DNA of 64,000 nt from a virus: IMG/VR virus record IMGVR_UViG_3300013137_001826, positions 1 to 64,000 of that record. One strand, written 5' to 3'. Below, in pieces: positions 63,772 to 63,940 of this stretch. Made by a program: the position numbers and the translations under genes. How positions within the stretch are numbered: position 1 is the first letter of the stretch; every line of letters begins with the position of its first letter. The notes beneath the pieces were generated by a model, which worked only from the letters and a program-made list of their open reading frames with translations, did no database searches and had not been told where the DNA came from.

Positions 63772-63940
63772 AAAAAGATAAAGCAAAGAATATTGGGACA
63801 GCATATTTATCTAGCGCTCTACCGTTGAGCTATCGCGGCATATACCTTTCGACAATGAGTACCGCGAATAGGATTCGAACCTATAACCTCTCTCTTAATG
63901 GGAGAAACGATGCAACTGTTTCCATTGCTATTGCTTTATT
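63772..63940 (-). ncRNA. Circularly permuted tRNA-like RNA, Y RNA (YrlA-type) candidate
   Basis: In transcript order: 5' strand ATAAAGCAA (63939-63931) and ACAG; hairpin TTCTC-CCATTAA-GAGAG; AGGTT; T-arm ATAGG-TTCGAAT-CCTAT; acceptor 3' strand TCGCGGT plus A (ends 63860); 20-nt linker; acceptor 5' strand GCCGCGA (63839-63833); TA; canonical D-arm GCTC-AACGGTA-GAGC; then 3' strand CTGT and TTGCTTTAT (63786-63778), which pairs 9/9 with the 5' strand; then TTTTT. Acceptor strands pair 7/7 with one G-U, yet occur in reversed order. Closed acceptor plus paired ends is the layout of tRNA-mimicking bacterial Y RNAs. Confidence 0.65.
63801..63811 (-). promoter_or_regulatory. Late-type motif inside the permuted RNA
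   Basis: AGATAAATATG falls just after the D-arm half and could act as a late promoter for tRNA-Ser; alternatively it is only part of the RNA's 3' strand. Confidence 0.3.

Follow-up and report, generated by a model that had tools for sequence, protein, structure and literature searches.

A phage-encoded element that is probably a Y RNA with a permuted tRNA-shaped head

Introduction

The Y RNAs known from bacteria mimic tRNAs but have no anticodon arm. In their general plan, the 5' and 3' ends pair into a stem that binds Rsr, and a tRNA-like domain made of D-arm, T-arm and acceptor binds PNPase (PMC8394870). The YrlA kind is held in Rfam as RF02553 and was described by Chen et al. (2014, RNA 20:1715), whom we cite through PMC8394870 and PMC12282133, and by Wang et al. 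(2018, PDB 6CU1). The tRNA-like domain of Salmonella YrlA has been proposed to inhibit an anticodon nuclease by competition (PMC7790460). Permuted tRNA genes, on the other hand, are known from unicellular algae and an archaeon, where a bulge-helix-bulge lies at the junction and maturation passes through a circular intermediate (PMC3978253). Here we analyse an element with features of both systems in a stretch of 64,000 nucleotides of viral DNA (IMG/VR record IMGVR_UViG_3300013137_001826, positions 1 to 64,000), which we call the window.

Results

A complete cloverleaf in permuted order

The minus strand at 63906-63816 holds a complete cloverleaf whose parts follow each other, 5' to 3', as anticodon arm, variable region, T-arm, acceptor 3' strand, 21-nt linker, acceptor 5' strand and D-arm. 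An earlier note on this DNA had read a 3' tRNA portion (63906-63860) ahead of a 5' portion (63839-63816), the two pairing with each other; this reading is confirmed to the base, by the pairing of the acceptor (7/7), T-stem (5/5) and D-stem (4/4) and by the covariation described below, and the reversed tRNA is real. Its parts are:

63890-63906, minus strand: anticodon arm, TTCTC-CCATTAA-GAGAG, stem 63906-63902/63894-63890, no U33
63868-63884, minus strand: T-arm, ATAGG-TTCGAAT-CCTAT
63861-63867, minus strand: acceptor stem 3' strand, TCGCGGT, 7/7 pairs with 63839-63833, all seven covarying
63840-63860, minus strand: linker between the acceptor strands, 21 nt, starting ACTC, CCA not encoded
63833-63839, minus strand: acceptor stem 5' strand, GCCGCGA
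63816-63830, minus strand: D-arm, GCTC-AACGGTA-GAGC

Neither ARAGORN nor the Rfam tRNA model calls the permuted-order element, and on their silence an ordinary tRNA at 63906-63816 was rejected. The Rfam YrlA model matches the T-arm, acceptor and D-arm with 29.2 bits (E 2.2e-4 in a 441-base stretch), below its gathering cut-off of 69 bits, which the Ro phages Atuin (31.7) and csAssE-Sib (28.5) do not reach either. Matches to Rfam Plastid-ycf2 and Plastid-psbl-rps4 scored far under their cut-offs and were discarded as reflecting the tRNA-like letters of the opposite strand, and a blast search of the locus against phages returned short tRNA-like matches only.

The cloverleaf is the head of a larger element

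The interval 63816-63906 given in the earlier note bounds the head correctly, but the whole element is larger and extends over 63937-63780 (hand-counted coordinates). It runs from an outer helix through TAGCAA, an inner helix and a TTACTTC-type strand into the head, and returns through the inner helix and TTCT to the outer helix:

63780-63937, minus strand: whole Y-RNA-like element with permuted tRNA head, from the scaffold finder, an alignment of 27 homologues, covariation and the MFE fold
63931-63937, minus strand: outer helix S1 5' strand, AAAGCAA, 7/7 pairs with 63786-63780, all seven with compensatory changes in the 27 sequences
63908-63930, minus strand: TAGCAA internal-loop strand, inner helix 5' strand (63919-63916) and TTGCATCG, near-invariant alignment columns, putative Ro-binding stem
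63780-63801, minus strand: inner helix 3' strand CTGT (63801-63798), conserved AATATTCT and outer helix 3' strand TTGCTTT, from the scaffold finder, alignment and MFE fold

The outer helix (AAAGCAA/TTGCTTT) directly abuts TAGCAA and TTCT, the return strand ending in AATATTCT, and the window strand TTGCATCG corresponds to TTACTTCG in relatives. An anticodon arm is present in the window element and in most of the 27 aligned sequences.

Although the MFE fold of the full element as a single sequence recovers all helices, its folding energy is ordinary (z -0.99); the evidence for the structure is covariation. In the alignment of 27 permuted-head sequences, 24 of 28 pairs show compensatory changes, with 229 compensatory cells and 95.4% of cells paired; this percentage is inflated because elements were picked partly by outer-helix and acceptor pairing, whereas the variety of compensatory changes is not. 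The covariation score of 0.823 compares with 0.22 after shuffling and at most 0.16 when the partners were slid. A strict permuted-tRNA descriptor demanding 7/7 acceptor pairs found one match in the window and none in 30 dinucleotide shuffles, and 44 matches in the window and its relatives against 0-1 per shuffled set, the relatives being viral contigs that were gathered by their TROVE gene and nearly all carry the elements, whose flanks are shared. Similarly, the scaffold finder reported 102 elements in the window and relatives compared to 1-6 per dinucleotide-shuffled set. Chance origin of the permuted element is ruled out by these shuffles together with the covariation; structure and covariation are direct observations on the element.

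A Ro60-like gene lies nearby

About 3 kb from the permuted element, the window encodes a presumed protein partner:

58977-60605, minus strand: TROVE/Ro60-like protein, 542 aa, with a VWA-like C-terminal region and a DxSGS motif

The single sequence scores close to the Pfam cut-offs (TROVE 22-23.2 bits, cut-off 23; VWA_2 25.5, cut-off 27). A profile of 17 relatives matches animal Ro60 (1yvp, 6e-10) and Deinococcus Rsr (2nvo, 3.9e-6) in the PDB, and the protein matches PHROG 850 (RNA-binding) at 6e-29. The linkage recurs: the motif TAGYRA-N-GTTACTTC clusters at the TROVE/tRNA region in 14 of 15 relative records, against a single match for a reversed control pattern, and permuted tRNA heads lie near the Ro gene in Ro-like phages of Arthrobacter, Streptomyces, Rhizobium and Caulobacter. 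Anticodon-arm-like hairpins can be seen by eye in some Ro-phage heads (Arthrobacter phage Atuin, Rhizobium phage RHph_Y65, Caulobacter phage CcrPW). Both the family and its linkage to the Ro-like gene are observed directly. The YrlA 5' strand of Rfam (ggCgaAUGCUU) aligns with GGTGATACTTC in a gut-phage relative, a partial resemblance.

A scan of genome contigs also returned a contig from a bacterial bin (L037, CAKMMH010000082.1) with a TROVE gene 50% identical and two scaffold elements, possibly phage sequence in that bin.

One stem carries several kinds of head

The contig has four scaffold elements around its TROVE gene, among them:

about 64113, outside the window: plain-loop scaffold element, from the scaffold finder
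58470-58600, minus strand: second Y-RNA-like element, ordinary-order head with D-arm, anticodon arm (CTGCAAC loop) and T-arm, without a standard acceptor stem; partial Rfam tRNA match at 58508-58574
58063-58193, minus strand: third Y-RNA-like element, ordinary-order tRNA-Pro(TGG)-like head (58094-58166) on the same scaffold

Across the window and relatives, the heads seen on the scaffold comprise plain loops, ordinary-order tRNAs, acceptor-less tRNAs and tRNAs permuted at the 26/27 junction, the variable loop or the anticodon loop, so that different head types coexist on one stem. We parsed 94 distinct elements, a few of them presumably chance matches, with a head parser that is approximate (it scored the tRNA-Pro element of the window as plain and misplaced some anticodon arms). 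A permuted tRNA head was assigned to 41 of the 94: in 29 the anticodon arm was scored ahead of the T-arm, mostly the 26/27 permutation, and in 12 it followed the D-arm, a variable-loop permutation. One of the 29 (L003:2273) has, by eye, a cut anticodon loop and a GCGA-capped acceptor. The other heads were ordinary-order tRNAs (17), ordinary-order with poor acceptor pairing (6), T-arm only (9) or without a parsed tRNA part (21).

Some of these heads are recorded as tRNAs. ARAGORN calls tRNA-Pro(TGG) at 58094-58166 (minus strand), within Y-RNA flanks; because slots of this kind in relatives carry TAG, CAG, AGG or TCA loops, this head probably mimics a tRNA without working as one. To several ordinary-order heads the same program assigns mixed anticodons, among them stop (tta) and selenocysteine (tca). 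In the gut phage csAssE-Sib (L030:4609-4900, OR575929), two annotated tRNAs (Tyr and Lys) lie within Y-RNA scaffold flanks, adjoining a gene for a 'Ro sixty-related protein' and with a YrlA match ahead of them; their annotation may be misleading.

Elsewhere in the window, 61760-61895 (minus strand) contains a pair of tRNA-like units whose acceptor and T-arm are perfect or nearly so and which show no recognisable D-arm (e.g. ACGCTCG...GTGGGTTCGAATCCCTC-CGAGCGT). ARAGORN and Rfam make no call on these units, and the folding energy of the stretch is ordinary.

Ligase genes

RtcB is absent from 12 of 12 records searched, and RNA_ligase matches occur in 7 of 12, none of them at the permuted-element locus. 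In the window, 16126-18033 (minus strand) encodes one protein in which a cytidylyltransferase-like (NMNAT-type) domain comes after an RNA ligase domain; nothing seen connects this protein with the permuted RNA.

Discussion

Judging from sequence comparison, the element at 63937-63780 is most probably (roughly 0.85) a Y RNA that the phage encodes and that mimics tRNA in the manner of YrlA; its tRNA-shaped head sits on a stem that would dock on the phage Ro60-like ring protein. We infer its transcription as a Y RNA, its binding to Ro, its partner and its biological role. In the mechanism that we propose, the 5' and 3' parts of the RNA pair into the basal stem, the conserved strands TAGYRA, TTACTTC-type and AAYATTCT would be the likely docking site for the Ro60-like ring, and the upper end of the stem carries the tRNA-shaped head. 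The stem joins the cloverleaf at position 26/27, where D-arm and anticodon arm meet, and it is because of this joining point that the tRNA is encoded in permuted order. With the permutation being a matter of RNA architecture, no circularisation or ligation would therefore be needed. By analogy with Deinococcus, where the partner is PNPase, it is probably through the head that the Ro/Y-RNA particle tethers or gates a partner that recognises tRNA, or presents a tRNA surface during infection. The earlier note had held the unusual topology to be independent of a Y RNA. This separation does not hold: the permuted tRNA module is the known YrlA-type head, a Ro60-like gene lies nearby, and the same stem carries other tRNA arrangements.

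The permuted order could instead mark a true permuted tRNA gene, the transcript being cut and ligated at 26/27, its linker removed by RNase P and 3' processing, and CCA added to give a working tRNA. ARAGORN calls the rejoined halves a tRNA in 23 of 23 tested elements (the anticodon of the window element then being ambiguous, as it varies with the assumed junction), U33 is kept in many heads, an RNA ligase gene is present, and long linkers often begin with NCT or NCC, a start that they share with the 3' ends of the phages' ordinary tRNAs. Since linkers of 17-22 nt occur in 12 of the 27 sequences, many of them starting like a tRNA 3' end, end processing is conceivable; the tRNA-like rejoined halves and the linker starts fit descent from tRNA genes as well as they fit processing. 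By contrast, a bulge-helix-bulge at the junction is found in 3 of 27 elements against 2.7 in shuffles, which is no enrichment, and 13 of 27 have linkers of at most 8 nt (4-8-nt loops that close the acceptor, some of them GNRA tetraloops). The window loop CCATTAA is without U33, and at the apparently equivalent locus of close relatives the loop is ATTCCAA (TCC) in L002 and L004, and in L003 the break falls within the anticodon loop itself and GCGA caps the acceptor. Moreover, wherever a scanned locus has an Asn-type head (eight loci), it also has an ordinary tRNA-Asn(GTT), and the same stem also carries non-permuted heads. A permuted tRNA gene needing a ligase was accordingly rejected as the main explanation, given the lack of bulge-helix-bulge enrichment, the anticodon drift, the closed acceptors and the redundancy with tRNA-Asn, and we consider a functional permuted tRNA gene unlikely, its complete maturation route very much so. 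The circularising step that the earlier note called for, perhaps by the ligase at 16126-18033, finds no support, with RtcB missing, the RNA_ligase genes unlinked and many acceptors closed. A different origin, as the functionless, decayed leftover of a tandem tRNA duplication, would explain the order, as a tandem duplication that has lost both its ends leaves 3' part, spacer and 5' part in a row, and tRNAs are densely arrayed at the locus. Selection is nevertheless needed to account for the many compensatory changes and for flanks that stay near-invariant between divergent phages, and the covariation refutes this origin, to which we give next to no credence.

Anticodon drift, short acceptor loops and tRNA-Asn redundancy argue that the head is not kept as a decoding tRNA. 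Against the Y RNA reading stand the YrlA score far under the Rfam cut-off (29.2 against 69 bits), the ordinary folding energy, the long tRNA-like linkers, the kept anticodon arm, which is missing from described YrlA, and the intact CTGTTAA (Asn-type) loop in nine homologues, for which pure elbow mimicry gives no account. The kept arms suggest an extra role, for example as decoy or sensor: with their different anticodon arms, the heads could serve as bait for anticodon nucleases of the host or for further defence enzymes that act on tRNA, either holding the enzymes on Ro or protecting phage tRNAs. In favour of such a role are the anticodon arms that many heads with an apparently unchargeable acceptor retain, the different loops on one scaffold and the CTGTTAA loop that is kept while its stem covaries, and it has a counterpart in the anticodon-nuclease inhibition proposed for Salmonella YrlA (PMC7790460). 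Yet the candidate nuclease or target is still hypothetical, several heads have no usable anticodon arm and some loops look degenerate, so that we regard it as rather improbable; it would in any case be a role for the same Y RNA and not a different object.

Returning to the Y RNA, we tentatively raise a wider possibility, which we hold to be less likely than not: a phage lineage with a repertoire of Ro-bound Y RNAs whose one constant stem displays cloverleaves, often with real anticodon arms, in the ordinary order and in several circular permutations. In infection, these arms might decoy or sense anticodon nucleases, for example, or give tRNA-modifying enzymes a handle. The several elements of a locus, with heads that sample ways of joining a tRNA to the same Ro stem, many of them with a complete anticodon arm, amount to a natural experiment on which part of the tRNA shape matters. 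They also carry a warning that annotation programs record some Y-RNA heads as ordinary phage tRNAs.

Comparison with known systems

The element shares with YrlA a long basal stem in which the two ends of the RNA pair and which has a conserved internal-loop motif (here the conserved strands TAGYRA, TTACTTC and ATTCT), a permuted series of T-arm, acceptor and D-arm, and a position near a Ro60/Rsr-like gene; YrlA, too, has already been reported from phages. It differs in that the phage head keeps an anticodon arm, with the stem inserted beside it, whereas in YrlA the stem replaces the arm, and in that several Y RNAs occur per locus, sibling phage heads using other permutation points or the ordinary order. 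With the Rsr/Y RNA/PNPase particle (RYPER) of Deinococcus radiodurans it has in common a Ro-like ring protein (profile match 2nvo) with a Y RNA partner, but the phage group has a whole repertoire of heads, and PNPase tethering is here an analogy. Like the permuted tRNA genes of unicellular algae and an archaeon, it encodes the 3' half before the 5' half, with a linker joining the acceptor strands. Unlike them, it has conserved Ro-type stem flanks at the junction instead of a bulge-helix-bulge, its anticodon is not preserved, many homologues have a closed acceptor, and the context is that of bacterial phages. In the literature searched, outside which the YrlA primary papers lay, we found neither a Y RNA head that bears an anticodon arm nor a set of heads joined in different ways to one stem. 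As tRNA-like domains are already known from phage Y RNAs, we rate the anticodon-arm head and the multi-permutation repertoire as a new variant of them.
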